Shown here piece by piece: positions 31,653 to 43,349 of a stretch of DNA of 64,000 bases. Source of the stretch: an uncultured Opitutales bacterium (GTDB lineage Bacteria > Verrucomicrobiota > Verrucomicrobiia > Opitutales > Seribacteraceae); the NCBI GenBank assembly GCA_905478775.1, contig CAJQKB010000034.1, positions 1 to 64,000 on the forward strand. Reading direction: 5' to 3'. Under the pieces are notes generated by a model, which saw nothing but the letters and a program-made list of their open reading frames with translations, had not been told where the DNA came from and searched no databases. Within the stretch, counting starts at the first letter, position 1. Each line of letters opens with the position of its first letter. The translations under genes and the position numbers were made by a program.

Positions 31653-33062
31653 TTAAAATTTCTTAAGTATTGATTTATATTCGGGTCGATCTTTCCATTT
31701 CCGCAAATATTTTTTATATTCTGGAAGTTCAGTCCAAAAAATTCTCGTTGGTTGTGGAAGAACTGATCCACTTGGGTAGTCTTTTCCATTAACACTTTTT
31801 TCAATGGATTTGCGAGATTCCACAAGGATTTTTCGTAAATGAATTACTTGAGGGTGTTTGGGTCGAAATTCATTGGTAGATTCTGTCGAGTCGGTTAACA
31901 GGTTATACAGTTCTATTTTTCTTCCGATATCTTTTGGTTGAGAAATCATTTTCCAATCGTTGTCAATTATTGCCATTCGTCCACGACTGCTGAAAACTAA
32001 GGGTTTTTCCCTTTTTGAAATCTTCGAGCTGAAAAGCGGAGTAAGGCTTACGCCATCCATAGGATTGAGCATAGCAGATTCTTGGATACCGGCAATGTCT
32101 GCTATTGTGGGAAATATGTCTACTGAACCAGAAGGATATTTGCTGATTCGGCCCGTCTTTATTTTGCTGGGCCACTCTATTATTGATGGAACCCGAATCC
32201 CACCTTCATACAGACTACCTTTATAATCTCTCAATCCACCCGTGGTGGACGGGTTTATTTTGGGTAGTCCCCCGTTATCACTGGTAAACCAGACTAGTGT
32301 ATTTCGATCGACTTCCATATCTTTAAGTCCTTTGCGAAGAGTCCCTATGCTTCGATCCATCGCTTTAAGTTCCGCATAGTGATCCTGAGAATTTTTATCT
32401 AGCTCTTTAAATTCTTTCCTATCTTCTTCGAGTGCCATCCAAGGGCTATGTGGAGTACCATACCAAATGACACAGAAGAATGGTTTTTCCTTTTTTGCTT
32501 CCTGCTCCATGAACTTAAGGGCTTCCTCAACTATGATTTCGGAGGAATCTCCCTTGAACTCTTCGATTTTTCCTTGGCGACTCATAATTGGGTTGAGGTC
32601 AAAAAAATTGGTAACTGAGAGCCATCTCTCAAAACCAAATACGTGGGGCCCATGAGGGTCTGTCTTTAGTATTGGAACACCCGCTCCTCGTAGTCCAGAA
32701 AGGTGCCATTTTCCGAAATGTCCAGTAGAATATCCCGCTTTAAGTAGGGCTTGCGGAAGTGTTTTTTCCTGTGTTCTTAATGCATAGCCGTGATCAAACA
32801 CTCCGGTTCGATCATGGGTTCTGCCGGTTAATACGGTAGCCCGTGTTGGCGAACATACTGGACCTCCTGCATAGAATCGATCCAATCGTAATCCGCACGA
32901 GGCCATTTTATCTAAATTGGGCGTCTTCAGCACAGGGTGATTGTAATAGCCAGTTTGTCCCCACCCTTGATCGTCTGTCATGACAAGAACAAAATTTGTC
33001 TTTCCATCTAACAGCAGCAGAGTAGAAAAACTCAGAAAAAGATTAATTATTAAAATCTTCAT
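31653..33062 (-). CDS. Secreted sulfatase (formylglycine type)
   Basis: The 469-residue protein has a signal peptide (about 1-21). It has the type I sulfatase fold: metal-binding Asp30-Asp31 in VMTDDQGWG and the CSPTRA motif with Cys70, which is converted to formylglycine by a maturation enzyme. Further motifs are TGHFGKWHLSG, the His of PHSPWMALEE, and FTSDNGG. It hydrolyses a sulfate ester, likely on a sulfated polysaccharide; the substrate cannot be read from sequence. The gene lies just downstream of the large multidomain gene with a 25-base gap, so the two are probably one operon. No maturase is in the window. Confidence 0.93.
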   Translation of the reverse strand: MKILIINLFLSFSTLLLLDGKTNFVLVMTDDQGWGQTGYYNHPVLKTPNLDKMASCGLRLDRFYAGGPVCSPTRATVLTGRTHDRTGVFDHGYALRTQEKTLPQALLKAGYSTGHFGKWHLSGLRGAGVPILKTDPHGPHVFGFERWLSVTNFFDLNPIMSRQGKIEEFKGDSSEIIVEEALKFMEQEAKKEKPFFCVIWYGTPHSPWMALEEDRKEFKELDKNSQDHYAELKAMDRSIGTLRKGLKDMEVDRNTLVWFTSDNGGLPKINPSTTGGLRDYKGSLYEGGIRVPSIIEWPSKIKTGRISKYPSGSVDIFPTIADIAGIQESAMLNPMDGVSLTPLFSSKISKREKPLVFSSRGRMAIIDNDWKMISQPKDIGRKIELYNLLTDSTESTNEFRPKHPQVIHLRKILVESRKSIEKSVNGKDYPSGSVLPQPTRIFWTELPEYKKYLRKWKDRPEYKSILKKF

Positions 33063-33087: not shown

Positions 33088-36000
33088 TTATTTTACGATA
33101 AGATTACCTTTCATAATTGTCCAGTGTCCAGGAAAACTACAAAGGAAAGGATAATTCCCAGTTTTTTTAGGTGCATTAAAGCGAAGTATTTCACTTTCTC
33201 CTTGCTTGAGCATTTTAGTATGTACAATTATCTTGTTGGATTTCGGAATAAACTGTCCGCTTTGAGCTGCAATTGGATCCTTTGCCATATTGTTCGCAGC
33301 AAGACCAACCTCTTCTACAGAATTTGGTTTAACAAGAACAAAGTTATGTGGCGTGGCATCAGGATTTCTGAATTCAATTCGTATCGGTTGATTTCTTTTT
33401 GCATATATATCTCCCTTCAAGGACCTCTTATATTCTCCAAGGTTTGTCTTTTCCATAAGTTCAACGGAATAAAGCATTCTTTCCTTCATGCAGGAAACTT
33501 TGACTTTAACTAGATTTTTTTGTCGGTCAAATTTGTTATCTTCTTTTGTTTGTTCCGCTTTTTTATAAACATTTTTTTGTCTGTTTAAAAAAGCATAAAG
33601 GAGTGGTTGTTTTTCTTCCAATTCTTCCGAATCCCAAAATTTTTTCATGGGTGCTGAACCAAGGGAAGTTTTAATGGCGTAGCTTAAGTGTTTATCATTG
33701 GGTTTACTGCTTACAACTTTCAGTGCTTCAAACGCACTTTTGGTACCGATATAACTGCAAGCAATTGCTGCTTCTAATCTTACAAGCCCATTTTTATCTC
33801 GAGCCGCTTTTAGTAATAAATCATCTCCCCTATTGGTCAATGAATGCCAATGTCTAAGTTGTCGTGTGGCTGCTGCCCGAGCGTTGTGGTTTTCACATTG
33901 AAGCAATTCCGCAAGGAGTTTTATATTAGATTGCTCCACATTCCGGTAAGTCCACAATGCCTCGACTTGATGATGCCTGAAGCGTGGATCATTGGTATCG
34001 AGTTTCTTGACCCATTGGTCGAGTGCTTTTTTAACTAGAATTGGTTCCATCTCTCGAATCTCCCTTTTAGCCCAGTAACGGTAGCGATATTCTGGTCGTT
34101 TAAGCAGATTGAGCAATTGAGGAAGAGTAGCACCAGTAATTTTCGGTGGATTTACCTCTTTTGCTCCCTTTGGCAGGATACGCCAGATGCGACCGGACTT
34201 TCGATCTCTCCTTTCATCTCGGAGAGAATACTGGGCATGTCCCTTTACCGGGTTGTACCAATCGCAGACATACATCGCACCTCTTGGGCCGTATCTTAGA
34301 TCAACTGGAATAAAGCTGAGATTAGAGGAAAATATAATATCTGAAACATACTCTTCTTCGTATCCGTATTCGTATTCTTTCCACTTTAATAGCTCCACCC
34401 GGTTGGTTGATTTATAGCGGACTTTAACCATCATCCCCTGTAATTCTTTTGGCCAGTTTGGAAAGTCAATAAATTCCTGTCCGCATACTCCTGAATAAGC
34501 CTGCATCCCACTAGGCTTTGGGTGTTGTTTTGGGTAAGGAGGGTCGAGTGCATGATGGGCAGAGGCAAAAATTGGGTAACTGGCAACATGCTGGCCCCAG
34601 TCATCAAAGGTAACCCCCCATGGATTTGTACTGGGGTGAGTTCCAAAAGCAGTGAGTCTGTGTAGCTTGGGTTCCCAGGCGAACCAGCCGCTATTTTGTT
34701 GTCTAACTGGGCCGTAGGGGGTTTCCACCTGAGTGTGGTGAAAAATAGATTCCCGGAAAATTAGGTCCCCGTCCGGAGTCCAGACAAAGTCATGAAGTGC
34801 ATGGTGAGAATCTTCACACCCAAATCCAGTGAGGGGGATTTCTCGGAAGTCCGCTTTTCCATCTCCGTTGGTATCCTTAAGAAAAGTCATGTGCGGTTCC
34901 TCTGAGACATAGACTCCCCCATTCCCAAATTCGAATGACAGAGGAACATTCAAACCTTCTGCCCAGACTGAACATTGATCGGCTTTTCCGTCTTTGTCTA
35001 AATCTTCCAGGATTACTATCTTGTCATTTGGAGCCTGTCCCGGATAGACATGAGGGTAAGTGGTTGAACAGGATACCCACATTCTACCTTTTCCGTCCCA
35101 TCTCATTTGAATAGGACAGGCAATGTCAGGAAATTGCTCTTCACTTGCAAAAAGAGATACCTCGAATCTGGGATCAACCTTAAAAGCCGCTTTTTCCTCC
35201 TCGGGTGACATCCATTTGTTAGCACCCCTACTCTCCTTGGTGATGGGCAAGGGAGGGACATTAGAATCATTGATGATGGGGGAAGGCTTTTTGCCTTGGG
35301 CAAGGCGGTGAATTTGCCGATCCCTATTCTCGGTCATCAGATCAAAATTTCTCATAGCGGGCAGAAAATCGAGGTACCCATAACTCCCTTTTCTTCCACC
35401 GGTGTAATAAAATGTGTTGAGTGGGCGGTATCGATAAAAATGTTGTCTGTTTTTTTCAATCACCGCGGCGCGTATATCCTTATCTACAGAGGGAGCCTCT
35501 TTTTGAAAAACTCCTTCGAATAAAATTTTTGCAAACTTAGAATATCCGAGGGCATTTAAATGTGCTCCATTTATGGTTAGGTCGTTTTTTTTCAGGAGCA
35601 TTTCTGCAGCAGTTCCATCAAACACATTGACGAAGCCGACTTTTTGTTTGTCCGCAACTTTTTTCATGGACTTACAGTAAGCCTTAATGTTCTCATTATT
35701 CAGGTTGGCTGCGGAAACACCGTTGACATTTTCGTTTGCGATTGGCGAGACCAGCACCAGAAGTGGTGCGGATTTCCCATTGTACGATTTTGACCCTAAA
35801 TTTAACAAATAATTTGCCAGGCGAGTTTCAAAAGAGGAAAGTTCTTTTATTCCACCAAACGATTCGTTGAACCCAAAAGCAGCGATAATAATGTCTGCCT
35901 TCATTGCAGTAAGGTGTTGTTCAGTATCGGCAAAATTGGCGGGCCTTGGTTGCAGGTCAATCTCATCCGCTGACCAAGCCAAATTCCTGACCACCAAATT

Positions 36001-36297
36001 TAGATCGGGATGCGCTTTTTGTAGGATTGCCTCGAAATGGCCAAAATTTCGCATTCGATCAAAAAGGGTGTTTCCTAAGAGTGCAATGCGGGCATTCGCC
36101 TGTAACGTAAAGGGTAGCCTGGAGGGGATTGGGTTGGTAGATTCAGGCCTTTCTGCGTTGGACGCAAACATGGCGTATTTTCGAAAGTCTTCCTCTTCCG
36201 AGTGAAGGGAGATTGAGTAGAAAAATGCGAGGAGCCAAACGAAAGATAAGCTTGAGCCCTTAAACACTTTAGAGATTCTGTTCTTCATAAAATTCAT
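33088..36297 (-). CDS. Multidomain surface protein: SGNH, beta-propeller, HEAT, cupredoxin
   Basis: The 1069-residue protein has a signal peptide (about 1-32). About residues 60-280 look like an SGNH/GDSL-type hydrolase (ARIALLGNTLFDRM, AAFGFNESFGG, GAHLNALGYSKFA). About 380-680 is the PVC membrane-bound dehydrogenase-type beta-propeller (CPIQMRWDGKGRMWV, DKIVILEDLDKDGKADQ, DTNGDGKADF). About 720-900 has HEAT-like helical repeats. The last about 105 residues are a cupredoxin domain with copper ligands in PHNFVLV and CSFPGHWTIMKG. A heme c motif is not seen. It is upstream of a sulfatase and likely acts in the same carbohydrate system; its reaction is not known. Confidence 0.88.
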   Translation of the reverse strand: MNFMKNRISKVFKGSSLSFVWLLAFFYSISLHSEEEDFRKYAMFASNAERPESTNPIPSRLPFTLQANARIALLGNTLFDRMRNFGHFEAILQKAHPDLNLVVRNLAWSADEIDLQPRPANFADTEQHLTAMKADIIIAAFGFNESFGGIKELSSFETRLANYLLNLGSKSYNGKSAPLLVLVSPIANENVNGVSAANLNNENIKAYCKSMKKVADKQKVGFVNVFDGTAAEMLLKKNDLTINGAHLNALGYSKFAKILFEGVFQKEAPSVDKDIRAAVIEKNRQHFYRYRPLNTFYYTGGRKGSYGYLDFLPAMRNFDLMTENRDRQIHRLAQGKKPSPIINDSNVPPLPITKESRGANKWMSPEEEKAAFKVDPRFEVSLFASEEQFPDIACPIQMRWDGKGRMWVSCSTTYPHVYPGQAPNDKIVILEDLDKDGKADQCSVWAEGLNVPLSFEFGNGGVYVSEEPHMTFLKDTNGDGKADFREIPLTGFGCEDSHHALHDFVWTPDGDLIFRESIFHHTQVETPYGPVRQQNSGWFAWEPKLHRLTAFGTHPSTNPWGVTFDDWGQHVASYPIFASAHHALDPPYPKQHPKPSGMQAYSGVCGQEFIDFPNWPKELQGMMVKVRYKSTNRVELLKWKEYEYGYEEEYVSDIIFSSNLSFIPVDLRYGPRGAMYVCDWYNPVKGHAQYSLRDERRDRKSGRIWRILPKGAKEVNPPKITGATLPQLLNLLKRPEYRYRYWAKREIREMEPILVKKALDQWVKKLDTNDPRFRHHQVEALWTYRNVEQSNIKLLAELLQCENHNARAAATRQLRHWHSLTNRGDDLLLKAARDKNGLVRLEAAIACSYIGTKSAFEALKVVSSKPNDKHLSYAIKTSLGSAPMKKFWDSEELEEKQPLLYAFLNRQKNVYKKAEQTKEDNKFDRQKNLVKVKVSCMKERMLYSVELMEKTNLGEYKRSLKGDIYAKRNQPIRIEFRNPDATPHNFVLVKPNSVEEVGLAANNMAKDPIAAQSGQFIPKSNKIIVHTKMLKQGESEILRFNAPKKTGNYPFLCSFPGHWTIMKGNLIVK

Positions 36298-36556: not shown

Positions 36557-37354
36557 TTACCGATTTATTCGGATCGAGATTCCCATTCCTCGGGAATGAG
36601 TGTGAGTAATTCCCGAGTATCCTCCACCTGTCACTCCAACTCCATTCATGTTCATTCCTCCAGTGTAAGGATTGACGAACACCGGAGCCGGACCTCGGGG
36701 TAAAACGATCAGTGAGTTTGGATTTTGGTTTTTGCCTAGGACCACAATTCTTTGTGGTTGCTGGTAAAGAATGGGTCCCCCGACGCTAGGCATGCCGTAT
36801 AAATTTCCTGAGGGGATAAGCACAGTTCCCGTATTTTGGGTAACGGATCGACTTGCCTGAAAGGATATACTTGCCCGCCAGTTGTTTTCGATTAGATCAA
36901 AATTTACTCTCGTTGCATTAAACCTACTATACGCCCGGCCTAGTTTGTCATAGCCGTCCACCCAAGCAAGAAAAGGGGTAGGCCCGTTTCCTATCGCAAC
37001 CGGAGGAAGTCCGGGATTATATAAGACCGTTTGGCCATACCCCACTCCGCCTGAATTTAAAATTTGTAGGAACATTTGAAGATGTCCGGGGTATTCCTTA
37101 CCGACATAAAGATAGTTTTCAGTCGCTCCCTCATGCCATTTTAAAGTATAGGCCTGATCTTCAACGCTAAAAGAAGAAAGCTTGCTATTAAAAGATTTTC
37201 CATCTTTCCGAATAATACTTACGACCTCTGATTTTTTATCATAGGCTGTAATGGAAGCCACGATTTTACGAACCCCATCTGCACTCGTGAATGTGCGGGC
37301 TTCCATAAAAGAAACAATAAGTAGAAGGCAGAAAATATGCTTAAATAATGGCAT
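36557..37354 (-). CDS. Secreted protein with SHD1-like N-terminal domain
   Basis: The 265-residue protein has a signal peptide (about 1-19). Residues about 20-75 (RTFTSADGVRKIVASITAYD, FSVEDQAYTLKW) resemble the small SLA1-homology (SHD1) domain frequent in PVC secreted proteins. The rest is a low-homology domain with a Gly/Asn-rich C-terminus (GGMNMNGVGVTGGG). No catalytic motif is seen. It diverges from the second sulfatase gene and lies 259 bases upstream of the multidomain gene's start. Function unknown. Confidence 0.7.
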   Translation of the reverse strand: MPLFKHIFCLLLIVSFMEARTFTSADGVRKIVASITAYDKKSEVVSIIRKDGKSFNSKLSSFSVEDQAYTLKWHEGATENYLYVGKEYPGHLQMFLQILNSGGVGYGQTVLYNPGLPPVAIGNGPTPFLAWVDGYDKLGRAYSRFNATRVNFDLIENNWRASISFQASRSVTQNTGTVLIPSGNLYGMPSVGGPILYQQPQRIVVLGKNQNPNSLIVLPRGPAPVFVNPYTGGMNMNGVGVTGGGYSGITHTHSRGMGISIRINR

Positions 37355-37482
37355 TTACAATCAATCTAGTCCGAAACCCTTCAAATCGTCAAATCGCAAG
37401 CTTGCTTTTTAAAGCTTGTGCATTCCGAAGGTAAGACTTGGGATGTTCTCTCAAGCCCCAATTTAAAACCAAACCATCAATC

Positions 37483-38976
37483 ATGAAAGTAACTTTATTC
37501 CTCTCCCTAATACTCTCTATTTTTACGGTAAACAAAATCTTAATATCCAAGGAGCTACCCTTTGGAGTCAGGCCCAATATCGTACTCATGATAACCGATG
37601 ATCAAGGTTATGGACCGATAGGAAAGCACGGCAATCCTTGGATCCAGACACCTAATCTTGATAAGCTACACGGGCAAAGCACCCGCTTTGAAAGGTTCTT
37701 GGTCAGTCCCACCTGCTCGCCCACCCGAGCCGCCCTTATGTCGGGCCGTCACCCCATGAAAAATGGAATTACTCACACCATTTTAGAAAGGGAAAGGATG
37801 GCATTAAGCACGGTGACCCTTCCTCAGGTGTTATCGAAGGCGGGCTATGTTTCTGGGATATTTGGCAAGTGGCATTTAGGGGACGAGGAGCCCTACCAAC
37901 CACATAAGCGCGGGTTTGACGAAGCCTTTATCCATGGAGCAGGTGGAATTGGACAGAAATTTAATTGCTCATGTGCTGATGTTCCGGGTAATCAATATTT
38001 TAATCCAACCATTCGTCACAATGGTTCCTTTGTAAGGACTAAGGGCTATTGCACCGACTTATTTTTCACCGCTGGAATGGGATGGATGAAAAAAATGAAA
38101 GACCAAGGGAAACCCTTTTTTGCCTATATCACGACGAATGCTCCGCATGGCCCTTTTATTGCTCCGCCCCAAAATGCAAAACGATTTACTGATCTTGGTT
38201 TCTCCGAAAGAGATGCCGGATTCTATGGAATGATAGAAAACATCGATCAGAATATGGGGCGGCTTATGAGCAAGCTCGACGAATGGAACCTCGCCAAGGA
38301 CACAATCCTTATTTTTATGTCTGATAATGGCTCAGTTGGCGGAATGGTACGAGAGGGCTCCAAGCTTGGTATGTCCAAGGACGGCAAGCCTATGGAAGGT
38401 TTCAATGCGGGGATGAAGGGTGCAAAAAGTTCGGCTGATGAAGGTGGGGTTCGCGTGCCATTTTTTGTTCGTTGGCCAGGCAAATTCGCAGCCGACCAAG
38501 CGGTTGAAAGGATTTCCGCTCATATTGATCTTTTACCCACACTTGCTGATATTGTGGGAATTGACCAGTTACCCAAGGGGCAAGTCGAGGGACGGAGCCT
38601 CCTGCCGCTAATCAAAAATCCACAAGCCAAGTGGAAGGACCGCTATCTTTTTACGCAGGGTGCCCGTTGGAAAACCGGTTCCGAACCGACTGATCATATG
38701 TGGAAGCGTTTTGCAGTTAGGAACGAGCGTTTTCGCCTAGTGGAGAACAAGCTCTACGATATGAAGAAAGATCCTTCGCAACTTTTGGATATTGCAGACA
38801 AAAATCCCAAAGTAGTTCAGTCGATGCGTTTAGCCTACGAAAAGTTTTGGAAGGAAACCCGCCCCCTTATGGTGAATGAGGAAGTTCCCATGTCTCCAAC
38901 CCAGCCCTACCATATACTTCATGCCAAGCAGTTAGAGAATGGCGGTATTCCGGACTGGAACGCACCCCCACTTTAA
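37483..38976 (+). CDS. Secreted sulfatase (formylglycine type), second copy
   Basis: The ATG at 37483 gives 497 residues; the frame is open upstream to 37438, but MKVTLFLSLIL is a good signal peptide start. The domain has RPNIVLMITDDQGYG (metal Asp39-Asp40), CSPTRAALMSGR with Cys78, FGKWHLGD, NAPHGPF and FMSDNGS. It is clearly divergent from the sulfatase at 31653. It heads a rightward set with the PSCyt/PSD1 and DUF1501 genes. Needs a formylglycine-generating enzyme encoded elsewhere. Its substrate is unknown; a marine sulfated glycan is likely. Confidence 0.93.
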   Translation: MKVTLFLSLILSIFTVNKILISKELPFGVRPNIVLMITDDQGYGPIGKHGNPWIQTPNLDKLHGQSTRFERFLVSPTCSPTRAALMSGRHPMKNGITHTILERERMALSTVTLPQVLSKAGYVSGIFGKWHLGDEEPYQPHKRGFDEAFIHGAGGIGQKFNCSCADVPGNQYFNPTIRHNGSFVRTKGYCTDLFFTAGMGWMKKMKDQGKPFFAYITTNAPHGPFIAPPQNAKRFTDLGFSERDAGFYGMIENIDQNMGRLMSKLDEWNLAKDTILIFMSDNGSVGGMVREGSKLGMSKDGKPMEGFNAGMKGAKSSADEGGVRVPFFVRWPGKFAADQAVERISAHIDLLPTLADIVGIDQLPKGQVEGRSLLPLIKNPQAKWKDRYLFTQGARWKTGSEPTDHMWKRFAVRNERFRLVENKLYDMKKDPSQLLDIADKNPKVVQSMRLAYEKFWKETRPLMVNEEVPMSPTQPYHILHAKQLENGGIPDWNAPPL

Positions 38977-39073
38977 CTAAAAGAATCAAAGACCATTAAA
39001 AGAAAATTAGCTAAATCGTGGGTGTAAATTTGACTTAAATAGTTGTTTTTAATGGTTTAAGTATGACTTTGTC

Positions 39074-41926
39074 ATGAATGTAATTTTCCGAACATTTGTC
39101 CTCTTTTGGATATTACAACTCGCCCATTTAAGTTTGGGGGTAGATGCCAAGAAAGTTGCGTTTTTTGAAAAGAAGATTCGACCCATTTTGGTAGAGAATT
39201 GTTACGAGTGTCATTCGGAAAAAGCCAAAAAAGTGAAAGCAAATCTATATCTCGACACGCGGGCGGGTTGGATTCAAGGGGGAGACAGCGGAACGGTAAT
39301 AGTACCCAAAAAACTTGGTCAAAGTTTATTATTTAAGGCGATAAGTTACGAGAGTAACGACCTGCGAATGCCGCCAGATGGCAAGTTGTCTAAAGAAGCG
39401 ATTAAGAATCTCCAAAAATGGATTTTGGAAGGAGCGATTGACCCTAGGGAAAATGAGATGGGAATGAAAAAAAAGCAAAACCCTATTTCCTTAAAGGAGC
39501 TAGCAGATGTACGGGACTATTGGGCTTTTAAACCGGTTCAATCTCAGCCATTTCCCAAAGTTAAGATGGCGGGATGGGCCGAAGATTCAATCGATTATTT
39601 TGTTTTGGCAAATTTGGAGTCAAAAAAATTAACCCCCTCGCGGTATGCGGATAAATATACTTTATTAAGAAGGATTTATTTTGACCTCATCGGATTACCT
39701 CCAAGCCCAGATCAAATTAATGATTTTATTTCTGATCGCTCTCCGAATGCGTTTCCAAAAGTGGTTGATGAATTACTCGGCTCAGAAAGGTTTGGAGAAA
39801 GATGGGGTCGACATTGGCTCGATGTTGCTCGTTATGCCGATACTATTGGTGGAGGCCGGAACAACCCTTTTCCTAATGCCAGCCGTTATCGAGATTATGT
39901 GGTATACAGTTTTAATAAGGACAAACCCTTTGATCGCTTTGTTATCGAGCAAATTGCGGGCGATCTGATGCCTTCAAAATCTAAATTGGAATATAATGAA
40001 TATCTTACAGGCACGGGATTTTTGGCTCTCGGTCCGCATAATTATGAATTACAGGACAAGGAACTCTTACGCATGGAAGTGGTCGACGAGCAACTAAGCG
40101 CGGTGGGTCGGGCGTTCATGGGCATTACTATGGGTTGTGCCCGCTGTCATGACCATCCCTTTGACCCGATTCCAACAAAAGAATACTATTCTATGGCGGG
40201 TATTTTTCGGAGCACTAATAGCTTGGTTCCAGGAAATGTAGCTAGTTTTCATGAAAGAGTATTGCAGGATGACTTTGGCACCCAACGAAAAGAACACGCG
40301 AGAGTCTTGACTTCTCTTGAGGAGAGATTGAAGGAAGCCATTTTAGCAGTTAGGTTATTAGGTGGTAAAAAGATAAGTTTGATTAGACAAAAAAGGAATT
40401 TAGACCCACTTTACTTAGACGGAATTGTTGTGGATGATTCAGATGCCAAATTGATCGGTAAATGGATTTCCTCGACTCACACAAATGGCTTTGTGGGAAA
40501 GCGATATTTGCATGATGACAATAAAGGTAAGGGTACTAAATCGATTACTTTTTCGGCAAATATTCCACGCAAGGGAGAATATGATGTTCAAGTTTCTTAC
40601 ACCGTTGGTTTAAATCGATCAAACAGAACTCCGGTGACCATTATGCATGCGGATGGCGAACATAAAGTCCTACTTGATCAAACAAAAGCCCCTCAAATAC
40701 TGGGAGCGTTTAAGTCGGTTGGAAGATTTAATTTCGACAGGAGAGTAATGGAGGTCGTTCAGATTACAACAGAAGGAACGAGGAAGGTTGTGATCGCGGA
40801 TGCGATCCGCTTGGTTCCGGTAATGAAAGTGCCTTCTCTCGACAAAACGGCGAAAAAAAGTACTGCTGATTCTAAAAAAAATAACATGCTTAAAGTTCAG
40901 ATTAAGAATGCAGAAATACGAGTCGAGGAGCTGAAAAATTTAATCGTTGAGCACAATAAGAAGGCTCCGCCTAAAGCTGAAAAGGCATTGTCAGTTCGAG
41001 AGCAGAAGGCAGTTGGTGATTGGCATGTTCATCTTCGTGGAGGAATCCGTAATTTGGGACCGCTTGTTCCGCGGGGATTTTTGGTAGTCGCAACCCCGCG
41101 GCATACATCTCCATTTCCCCAGATACCTGAAGGATCAAGCGGTCGCCTAGAACTTGCCCATTGGGTATCCTCTCCTCAAAACCCCCTTACTGCTCGAGTA
41201 TTTGTCAATCGGGCTTGGCATCATCTTTTTGGTCGTGGAATCGTATCGAGTACAGATAATTTCGGGAAAATGGGAAGTCGACCTACCCATCCAGAACTTC
41301 TCGATGACCTAGCACAATTTTTCATTGATAATAAATGGTCTATCAAGACACTTATCCGCAAAATTGTACTTTCGACAACATACCAAATGTCTTCCAACGC
41401 AAATGAAAAAGCATTAAAGGAGGATCCGGAGAATCAATTATTTTCTAGACAGAATAGACGAAGACTGGATGCGGAGGCAATTCGAGACGCCATGCTATTG
41501 GCAAGTGGGCAGATTACATTTGAAAACTCGAAGGCAAATCAAAATCGTTCATTGTTTCAAAAGATTGACCGGAACAAAATTCCAGAAATTTTTACTGTCT
41601 TTGATTATCCCAATCCAGGATTGGTTTCAGGGAATCGTAACACTAGCACTGTTCCTACCCAAGCTTTGTTTATGATGAATAGTGATTTTGTAATGAGGCA
41701 AGCTGTGCTTACCGCTCAAAATATCTTCGGTCGAGAAAGTGTAGATGTCGAACTCAAGATTAAATTGGTTTTCCTGAGCTGTCTTGGGCGTGAGCCGAAT
41801 TACGACGAAAAGAAACTGGTTTATAGTTACTTAGATCAAAGCTTGGACGGAGAAACTGGCTCTAAAGCAATGGAAGGCCTTGTGCATTCTCTTTTTGCAT
41901 GTTTAGATTTTCGATATTTGAATTAA
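39074..41926 (+). CDS. PSCyt1-DUF1549-DUF1553 cytochrome-like surface protein
   Basis: The 950-residue protein has a signal peptide (about 1-22). The PSCyt1 domain follows with a CxxCH heme motif (Cys43, Cys46, His47; CYECH), then DUF1549 (about 145-345) with a second CxxCH (GCARCHDHPFDP). A carbohydrate-binding-module-like insertion follows (about 450-580, KRYLHDDNKGKG), then a coiled coil (about 610-645), then DUF1553/PSD1 to the end (RVFVNRAWHHLFGRGIV, QNRRRLDAEAIRDAMLLASG). Such proteins are common in planctomycetes and verrucomicrobia beside sulfatases and DUF1501. The biochemical role is not established. DUF1501 follows 8 bases later. Confidence 0.92.
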   Translation: MNVIFRTFVLFWILQLAHLSLGVDAKKVAFFEKKIRPILVENCYECHSEKAKKVKANLYLDTRAGWIQGGDSGTVIVPKKLGQSLLFKAISYESNDLRMPPDGKLSKEAIKNLQKWILEGAIDPRENEMGMKKKQNPISLKELADVRDYWAFKPVQSQPFPKVKMAGWAEDSIDYFVLANLESKKLTPSRYADKYTLLRRIYFDLIGLPPSPDQINDFISDRSPNAFPKVVDELLGSERFGERWGRHWLDVARYADTIGGGRNNPFPNASRYRDYVVYSFNKDKPFDRFVIEQIAGDLMPSKSKLEYNEYLTGTGFLALGPHNYELQDKELLRMEVVDEQLSAVGRAFMGITMGCARCHDHPFDPIPTKEYYSMAGIFRSTNSLVPGNVASFHERVLQDDFGTQRKEHARVLTSLEERLKEAILAVRLLGGKKISLIRQKRNLDPLYLDGIVVDDSDAKLIGKWISSTHTNGFVGKRYLHDDNKGKGTKSITFSANIPRKGEYDVQVSYTVGLNRSNRTPVTIMHADGEHKVLLDQTKAPQILGAFKSVGRFNFDRRVMEVVQITTEGTRKVVIADAIRLVPVMKVPSLDKTAKKSTADSKKNNMLKVQIKNAEIRVEELKNLIVEHNKKAPPKAEKALSVREQKAVGDWHVHLRGGIRNLGPLVPRGFLVVATPRHTSPFPQIPEGSSGRLELAHWVSSPQNPLTARVFVNRAWHHLFGRGIVSSTDNFGKMGSRPTHPELLDDLAQFFIDNKWSIKTLIRKIVLSTTYQMSSNANEKALKEDPENQLFSRQNRRRLDAEAIRDAMLLASGQITFENSKANQNRSLFQKIDRNKIPEIFTVFDYPNPGLVSGNRNTSTVPTQALFMMNSDFVMRQAVLTAQNIFGRESVDVELKIKLVFLSCLGREPNYDEKKLVYSYLDQSLDGETGSKAMEGLVHSLFACLDFRYLN

Positions 41927-41933
41927 GAAAGTA

Positions 41934-43349
41934 ATGACTAGGCGTTTTCAAAAATTAACCCGAAGAAGTTTACTTCAAACAGTAGCTTGTGGGTTTGGTT
42001 CTATTGCCTTAGCCGGATTAGAAAATGCAAATGCTCAACCCTCAAGCTCCCTTCTTGCGAAGCCTCCCCGTTTTCCGCAACGAGCTAAACGGATTATCTT
42101 TATTTTTATGGCTGGTGGCCCGAGTCATGTGGATACATTTGATTACAAGCCTGAACTTTTTACGAAGGACGGAAAGGAGATCGATTTTGTAGGGGTTCGC
42201 ACAAATACATTTGGTAAAGCGAGCAAACGCAATTTGATGAAACCTCTTTGGGATTTTAAGCAACATGGACAGTGCGGAAAGCATATTTCCTCTCTATTTC
42301 CCAATATTGCGAGCCATGTCGATGAACTGGCTTTTATTCACTCCATGCATACCGAGGGAGTGGCTCACGGTCCCTCAACTCTTTTCATGCATACTGGAGC
42401 AACTAACTTGGTTCGTCCATCCATGGGGAGCTGGATATCGTATGGACTAGGATCGGAGAATCATAATTTGCCCGCTTTCGTAACTATTTCTCCATCTACA
42501 AGCAAGGGCGGTCCGAGAAATTATGGGAATGCCTTTTTGCCATCTATTCACCAGGGAACCGCCCTTGGAAGAGCTGGGAATGTGAATGGAGCCAAGATTC
42601 GAAATGTAGAAAATGCCATGCTCGGTGATTCTCAGAGAAAAAGTCGCTTTGACCTCTTGCAGAATTTAAATACGGTTCAGTCGAATCGTTATTCGCATGA
42701 TGATGAGTTGGAGGCGACTATTGAAAATTACGAATTGGCTTGGCGTATGCAGATGGAAGCGCCGGAATTAACGGATCTCTCCAAAGAAACCAAGTCGACC
42801 AAAAGTATTTATGGGATCGACGAGAAAGATACCGATGATTTTGGAAAGCAATGCTTACTGGCAAGAAGAATGGTAGAGCGAGGTGTTAGGTTCGTAAGTG
42901 TTAATTATTCGGATGAATCCGCTAATCCGAGGTGGGATCAACACAGCAACATGCCGAATCATGCCAACCATGCCAGAGCAACCGACAAGCCGGTTGCTGG
43001 ATTATTACAGGACCTAAAAGCGAGGGGCTTATTGGAAGATACCTTAGTATGGTGGGGCGGGGAATTCGGAAGAACCCCTTTTTCTCAGGGAAAAGATGGG
43101 CGTGATCATAATCCACGGGGCTTTACAGTATTTTTAGCCGGTGGTGGAATTAAGCCAGGTATTTCTTATGGTTCGACAGATGAAATTGGAGGCACTGCTG
43201 TTGATAACCGTGTCCATATGCATGATCTGCATGCCACCATTCTACACGCAATGGGCCTGAATCATGAAAAATTGACTTACAGATCTGCAGGGAGAGATTT
43301 CCGACTGACCGATGTACATGGAAGTGTGGTAGAGGATTTGTTTTCTTGA
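41934..43349 (+). CDS. DUF1501 protein with Tat-type signal
   Basis: The 471-residue protein starts with a twin-arginine signal (TRRSLLQTVACGFGS), which implies export in folded form. It continues with the DUF1501 core: RIIFIFMAGGPSHVDTFDYKP, the metal-type HTEGVAHGPS and GGEFGRTPFSQGKDGRDHNPRG. The fold is related to sulfatases/alkaline phosphatases, but it lacks the Cys-formylglycine motif. It is 8 bases after the PSCyt/PSD1 gene, the fixed partner in PVC genomes, so both probably work together. Activity is unknown. Confidence 0.92.
   Translation: MTRRFQKLTRRSLLQTVACGFGSIALAGLENANAQPSSSLLAKPPRFPQRAKRIIFIFMAGGPSHVDTFDYKPELFTKDGKEIDFVGVRTNTFGKASKRNLMKPLWDFKQHGQCGKHISSLFPNIASHVDELAFIHSMHTEGVAHGPSTLFMHTGATNLVRPSMGSWISYGLGSENHNLPAFVTISPSTSKGGPRNYGNAFLPSIHQGTALGRAGNVNGAKIRNVENAMLGDSQRKSRFDLLQNLNTVQSNRYSHDDELEATIENYELAWRMQMEAPELTDLSKETKSTKSIYGIDEKDTDDFGKQCLLARRMVERGVRFVSVNYSDESANPRWDQHSNMPNHANHARATDKPVAGLLQDLKARGLLEDTLVWWGGEFGRTPFSQGKDGRDHNPRGFTVFLAGGGIKPGISYGSTDEIGGTAVDNRVHMHDLHATILHAMGLNHEKLTYRSAGRDFRLTDVHGSVVEDLFS

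Follow-up and report, generated by a model that had tools for sequence, protein, structure and literature searches.

Contig CAJQKB010000034.1 of GenBank assembly GCA_905478775.1, from an uncultured Opitutales bacterium (Verrucomicrobiota), carries a gene in which an SGNH-fold domain, a beta-propeller, a HEAT-like helical repeat and a cupredoxin are encoded in a single chain. The window analysed here comprises positions 1 to 64,000 of this contig on the forward strand, and the gene lies on its minus strand. The encoded protein is most likely an exported, non-canonical carbohydrate oxidoreductase. The gene and its parts are as follows.

33088..36297, minus strand: whole gene, 1069 amino acids plus stop, an open ATG-started frame supported by relatives.
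36196..36297, minus strand: probable signal peptide region, residues 1–34, with a basic start and a hydrophobic stretch at 17–31 (judged by eye; helix 17–31 in the structural model).
35497..36114, minus strand: SGNH-fold domain, residues 62–267 (Pfam, alignments and structure matches).
35212..35496, minus strand: conserved helical linker, residues 268–362 (model and alignment).
34162..35190, minus strand: beta-propeller with the fold of pyrroloquinoline quinone (PQQ) sugar dehydrogenases, residues 370–712 (Pfam, NCBIfam, structure matches and alignments).
33526..34140, minus strand: HEAT-like helical repeat, residues 720–924 (Pfam and model).
33091..33510, minus strand: azurin/auracyanin-type cupredoxin, residues 930–1069 (Pfam, profile and structure matches).

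Each of the four main parts is matched by a Pfam family. Lipase_GDSL_2 covers residues 87–252 with 33.9 bits, barely above its gathering score of 32.9, and the propeller family DUF7133 covers residues 364–588 far more strongly (196.8 bits against a gathering score of 27). HEAT_2 lies on residues 794–869 (35.5 against 27.7 bits) and Copper-bind on residues 974–1069 (32.1 against 21.2 bits). An earlier note, made from the DNA letters alone, had described one protein built from these parts and had placed it with the membrane-bound dehydrogenase-type proteins of Planctomycetes–Verrucomicrobia–Chlamydiae (PVC) bacteria. The intact frame and the Pfam matches agree with the first point, as do the relatives described below, and the match to NCBIfam TIGR02604 (198.7 bits, above the curated cut-off of 122.2) supports the second.

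The same chain recurs in Verrucomicrobiota and Planctomycetota, with 52–94% identity, in the best 80 of 118 loci found by scanning a genome collection described as covering 84,980 species. Because the whole architecture is shared by 80 loci, we ruled out a chance join or an assembly chimera. One of the six search peptides (HWTIMKGN) lies in the cupredoxin, and thus this set of relatives leans towards cupredoxin-bearing members. Among 240 evenly drawn genomes of the phylum, with at most three candidates scored per genome, 5 carry a full-length member and 16 carry any match at 1e-30. A match at 1e-200 is present in 23 of 57 close relatives (25 matches); 18 of these matches span the model in frames of 1048–1113 amino acids, 3 begin late yet extend to its end (frames of 961, 795 and 1049 amino acids) and 4 stop short. 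At four loci (L042, L050, L051 and L090), the frame carries a few hundred extra in-frame residues ahead of the SGNH part (frames of 1328–1392 amino acids). A literature search, with subscription journals mostly outside it, returned no description of an SGNH–propeller–HEAT–cupredoxin chain.

A complete set of copper ligands is found in the C-terminal domain. Residue counts here and below come from an alignment of 81 rows, with gapped rows set aside at each position.

33346..33348, minus strand: copper ligand His984 (His in 75 of 77 rows, Arg in 2).
33139..33141, minus strand: copper ligand Cys1053 (75 of 76 rows).
33124..33126, minus strand: copper ligand His1058 (75 of 75 rows).
33112..33114, minus strand: copper ligand Met1062 (75 of 75 rows).

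These residues bear out the C-terminal cupredoxin proposed in the earlier note, as does structure prediction of the whole chain. An AlphaFold2 model built from a 44-sequence alignment (pLDDT 82.8, pTM 0.78) was compared with solved structures by using Foldseek and VIA-align, and auracyanin (6kol, E 3.6e-8; 2aan, TMt 0.82) and azurin are among the best Foldseek matches to the cupredoxin. A profile search of this domain agrees (auracyanin 2aan, E 3.4e-19). The ligand loop CSFPGHWTIM, in a region that aligns to auracyanin, has the arrangement Cys-x4-His-x3-Met, the spacing of azurin. Azurin and auracyanin, which share this fold, loop and ligand set, are free carriers, whereas here the domain lies within a 1069-residue chain and scores 43 bits against the azurin equivalog TIGR02695, under its cut-off of 105.1. 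Invariant columns number 18 of 140 in the cupredoxin and 16 of 205 in the HEAT-like repeat. The protein is a probable export substrate, judging by its signal-peptide-like start, which agrees with a copper site in the periplasm. At one locus (L105:6001-9132), His984 is replaced by Arg, the heme tail is lacking and the next gene encodes a propeller protein with a cytochrome c.

At the other end of the chain, the SGNH part has the fold of SGNH/GDSL esterases such as Axe2, 3mil and 4q9a but departs from them at the active site. SGNH structures match residues 61–269 approximately (4q9a with Z 20.5; Z about 19–20 across matches). In the model, Gly75-Asn76-Thr77 occupies the expected GDS site at the first strand–helix turn (strand 70–75, helix 77–82), and of the 75 rows at position 77, 70 have Thr, 4 have Gly and 1 has Met, while none has Ser. 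The triad Asp of the DxxH motif is Asn243 in 79 of 79 rows, aligned with the Asp of DGLH in 3mil. Asn144 is kept in all 79 rows and His246 in 75, with Gln in the other 4, so that two members of the Ser-Asn-His set are present and the nucleophile is not. Two paralogs from the same genome (L007 and L008) likewise lack the GDS Ser, as judged by eye. An active SGNH esterase was therefore rejected, as nucleophile and triad Asp are replaced family-wide, and the earlier view of this part as a hydrolase is probably wrong. The altered site is itself highly conserved, which suggests that the domain (26 of 206 columns invariant) is probably a catalytically dead, substrate-binding module.

The earlier note had also reported that the chain has no CxxCH heme motif, and had proposed that copper may replace the cytochrome domain as electron acceptor. 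The motif is indeed absent from the chain, and TIGR02603 is absent among its NCBIfam matches at E up to 1. Seven of the 80 relatives are truncated before the tail could be judged. The copper motif is present in all 73 complete relatives, and in 18 of these the cupredoxin is followed by a CxxCH domain, whereas in the other 55, as in the window protein, the copper domain is the last. The heme tail is TIGR02603 in the four members scanned (90.3, 97.5, 90.3 and 94.6 bits; cut-off 68.15). Fourteen of the 18 heme-tailed rows, which are all of the complete Planctomycetota rows, belong to that phylum; 3 are from Verrucomicrobiota (L092, L097 and L100) and 1 is unassigned. The 18 close-relative frames of 1048–1113 amino acids likewise have no space for a heme tail. 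At E up to 1e-8, TIGR02604 occurs in 2 and TIGR02603 in 1 of 59 genomes of the phylum, which is too few to survey tails.

A tree of the window protein and the 73 complete relatives, built quickly from alignments that leave out the copper and tail columns and with no bootstrap, requires two changes to account for the tail distribution, and a single clade of heme-tailed rows is rejected (approximately unbiased test, p-AU 4.6e-6). In a tree rooted on two very long paralogs from the window's genome, likewise quick and with no bootstrap, the heme-bearing Planctomycetota are basal, which favours loss of the heme tail in Verrucomicrobiota; the rooting is uncertain, and the L092 group may have regained it. 

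A simple exchange of heme for copper was rejected because 18 of 73 chains contain a cupredoxin and a heme domain next to each other, which indicates that copper was not acquired as a heme substitute. The window's lineage is instead one that lacks the heme tail. The TIGR02604 proteins of the window's genome give the replacement idea partial credit. Counted by frame, there are 20 of them. Nine of these frames bear TIGR02603, whose tenth match falls in a different frame, a Pfam cytochrome c lies on one at contig C151, and a cupredoxin lies on 3 (C34, which is the window's contig, C161 and C158). No TIGR02604 frame of this genome was seen with both heme and cupredoxin, a pattern that fits alternative tails. 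One reading is that the chain is an otherwise normal PVC dehydrogenase, preceded by an active SGNH hydrolase, in which copper has taken over the role of final acceptor from the cytochrome. This pattern and the missing CxxCH speak for that reading, but it is unlikely given the chains that bear both domains and the family-wide loss of the SGNH nucleophile and triad Asp. The replacement claim is better put as copper that may or may not be accompanied by heme.

Within the window's genome, copper tails recur as a module. A cupredoxin stands alone at C25, and besides that of the window protein, azurin-type tails are seen on frames of 883 (L142, C160), 255 (L143, C33) and 1097 (L145, C158) amino acids, the last being one of the 3 TIGR02604 frames above. 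At L032:14014-15081 the order is reversed, with an N-terminal azurin-type domain followed by sequence that looks propeller-like by eye. The closed genome K23_9 has no azurin-type match at 1e-10 other than the fused domain, which would leave that chain with no free azurin of this type for its electrons. The window protein shares its propeller family and HEAT-like repeat with the database's ‘PVC-type heme-binding CxxCH protein’ (TIGR02604 plus TIGR02603; DUF7133), and it has TIGR02603-tailed relatives. It carries a copper domain instead of the heme domain, and in its Planctomycetota relatives copper precedes heme. The database name is unfit for the window protein, as its chain has no CxxCH.

The propeller is the best conserved part of the chain, with 124 of 343 columns invariant. 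Judged by structure matches, residues 370–712 approximately would adopt the six-bladed fold of PQQ sugar dehydrogenases: VIA-align pairs them with the PQQ sugar dehydrogenase 3a9g (Z 22.4, root-mean-square deviation 3.1, 274 aligned), with AA12 (Z 21.8), with Escherichia coli Asd (2g8s; 21.4) and with sGDH (1cq1; 19.2). Almost equal scores are reached by HHIP, a putative lactonase and DFPase, and thus the fold alone does not assign a chemistry. Profile comparison with hhalign gives 98.8% (E 5.8e-17) when the window protein and seven TIGR02604 paralogs from its genome are set against YliI and eight GSDH proteins, whereas the family alignment alone matches GSDH weakly (6.5%, E 0.0056). With a limit of E 1, Pfam GSDH (PF07995) did not match the window protein, nor did the propeller profile (A3) match the sequence of any solved structure. 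By profile alignment, the catalytic His144 of sGDH pairs with His499 and Asn229 pairs with Asn558; Lys377 pairs with Lys625 when placed by counting from aligned motifs. All three are present in 81 of 81 rows. The roles of His144, Arg228, Asn229, Arg408 and Lys377 in sGDH are described in two studies (PMC6881810 and PMC6881789).

A sulfatase gene adjoins the propeller gene.

31653..33062, minus strand: sulfatase gene, 25 bases downstream (PF00884, 185.3 bits).

The two genes are probably co-transcribed, and in 12 of 80 loci the next gene downstream is a counterpart of the sulfatase with at least 65% identity. A 265-residue frame at 36557–37354, on the same strand and with no Pfam match over cut-off, is kept upstream of the gene in 8 of 80 loci. 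Beyond it, at 37438–43349, three frames stand in a row: a sulfatase-like one, a long one with CYECH near its start and a third. This group resembles a planctomycete-type cytochrome gene set. In less closely related loci the neighbouring genes vary (Gfo/Idh/MocA, FG-GAP, glycosyltransferase, FdhD, kinase and others). Sulfatases and planctomycete-type cytochromes are linked to carbohydrate use in PMC5615132.

We propose, with moderate confidence, that PVC bacteria export the protein and that it is a self-contained enzyme for passing electrons, in which the propeller would perform catalysis, the copper would act as a relay and the heme would be either fused or free. The propeller would be the catalytic core, oxidizing a sugar or a derivative, perhaps from a sulfated polysaccharide, that is held near the propeller mouth with the assistance of the SGNH-fold module. 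Oxidation may proceed at a centre that is probably not PQQ. The HEAT-like helices would serve as a spacer, and the azurin-type copper would accept electrons from the propeller singly and pass them on. In Planctomycetota, the c-type heme domain fused behind the copper would be the next electron step, whereas in the window's lineage a free cytochrome c or a free azurin may replace the missing heme domain. The copper-before-heme order is suggested by the order of fusion. The propeller fold and its conservation, the near-invariant copper ligands, the fused heme and the adjoining sulfatase support this proposal.

Several observations weigh against it. The equivalents of the sGDH arginines Arg228, Arg406 and Arg408 are, by profile alignment, Thr557 (81 of 81 rows), Ile663 (81 of 81) and Val665 (80 of 81). 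The PQQ biosynthesis gene pqqC was not found in the window's genome, in a search that was uninformative by itself because no control matched; a search of the 240 phylum genomes supplied the positive control, with pqqC over cut-off in 5 of them (7 at E 0.001). None of the 5 genomes of that set with a full-length family member has it, and of 19 genomes, other than the window's, that have a family member (4 of them already among those 5), 18 lack it. PQQ is therefore a doubtful cofactor, and we know of no other. No conserved partner gene was found across the 80 loci, as neighbours outside close relatives are mixed. Finally, Lac161_ORF7, a TIGR02604–HEAT–cytochrome protein, is reported to hydrolyse lactose, a non-redox reaction (PMC5342196).

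With respect to the arginines, the RIRD motif of YliI falls on Ile663-Pro-Val665-Asp, and an Arg occupies the Ile663 position in four of seven paralogs (L008, L007, L013 and L001; by eye). Like Arg228 and Arg408, Arg406 of sGDH is a PQQ-binding residue, and the sGDH numbers are carried over to the corresponding residues of YliI. The sole pqqC match among the 19 genomes is in that of L061 (G296; C319:11504-12190) and contains one TGA; the closed K23_9 chromosome (L075) has no pqqC match. Scavenging of PQQ released by neighbours has a precedent, as E. coli has the PQQ enzyme YliI without making PQQ (PMC6881810 and PMC6881789). A true PQQ sugar dehydrogenase of this kind, with an unusual binding pocket, would account for the fold and for His499, Asn558 and Lys625. 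Nevertheless, such an enzyme is rather improbable given the three replaced arginines, the weak family-only match to GSDH and the unmatched PF07995. The window protein also differs from sGDH, Asd/YliI and fungal AA12 in carrying copper rather than a cytochrome b or c. The AA12 pyranose dehydrogenase of Coprinopsis resembles it in fusing a sugar-oxidizing propeller to a built-in electron carrier, although there the carrier is an unrelated N-terminal heme b domain and PQQ is bound (PMC6881789).

It is conceivable, though somewhat unlikely, that the redox centre of the propeller is something other than PQQ, perhaps a metal on invariant histidines, and is wired to the type-1 copper and, in Planctomycetota, to heme. 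His416, His498, His499, His502, His570, His582 and His687 of the propeller are present in 81 of 81 rows and His520 in 80. Nitrous oxide reductase combines a propeller metal site with a C-terminal cupredoxin, and it is not among the Foldseek and VIA-align matches listed for the model. If such a centre exists, the metal-propeller would define a new class of carbohydrate oxidoreductases with the nitrous oxide reductase layout, by analogy rather than descent.

The propeller could instead be a carbohydrate hydrolase or lyase, with the copper domain used for storage, oxygen protection or docking. Lactose hydrolysis by Lac161_ORF7 (Km 1.8 mM), the putative lactonase and DFPase among similar folds, the lost PQQ residues and the adjoining sulfatase all fit this alternative. 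Lac161_ORF7, the one experimental precedent for it in the wider family, is a cytochrome-bearing protein with no cupredoxin named in the section of PMC5342196 that describes it. Moreover, two different redox domains, copper and heme, have repeatedly been joined to one type of propeller, a pattern not easily accounted for unless electrons flow, and we consider hydrolysis or lyase activity improbable. Far less probable is a structural role, as a membrane-coat-like protein of the PVC bacteria. The definition in PMC2799638, a propeller followed by stacked helix pairs, matches the domain order here. However, that definition concerns fold order only, none of the words dehydrogenase, cytochrome and heme appears in the text of PMC2799638, and a structural role leaves the near-invariant copper ligands unexplained.

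This architecture is real and widespread, and it is a variant of the PVC heme-protein family. PVC bacteria have many propeller–HEAT–heme proteins of unknown chemistry, as the number of TIGR02604 frames in this genome illustrates. In this family, copper and heme tails are modules that are able to coexist, and the name heme-binding CxxCH protein misfits some members. The assumption that this propeller uses PQQ is in need of testing. Because type-1 copper changes colour on reduction, the chain would carry an inbuilt reporter with which substrates could be screened directly.

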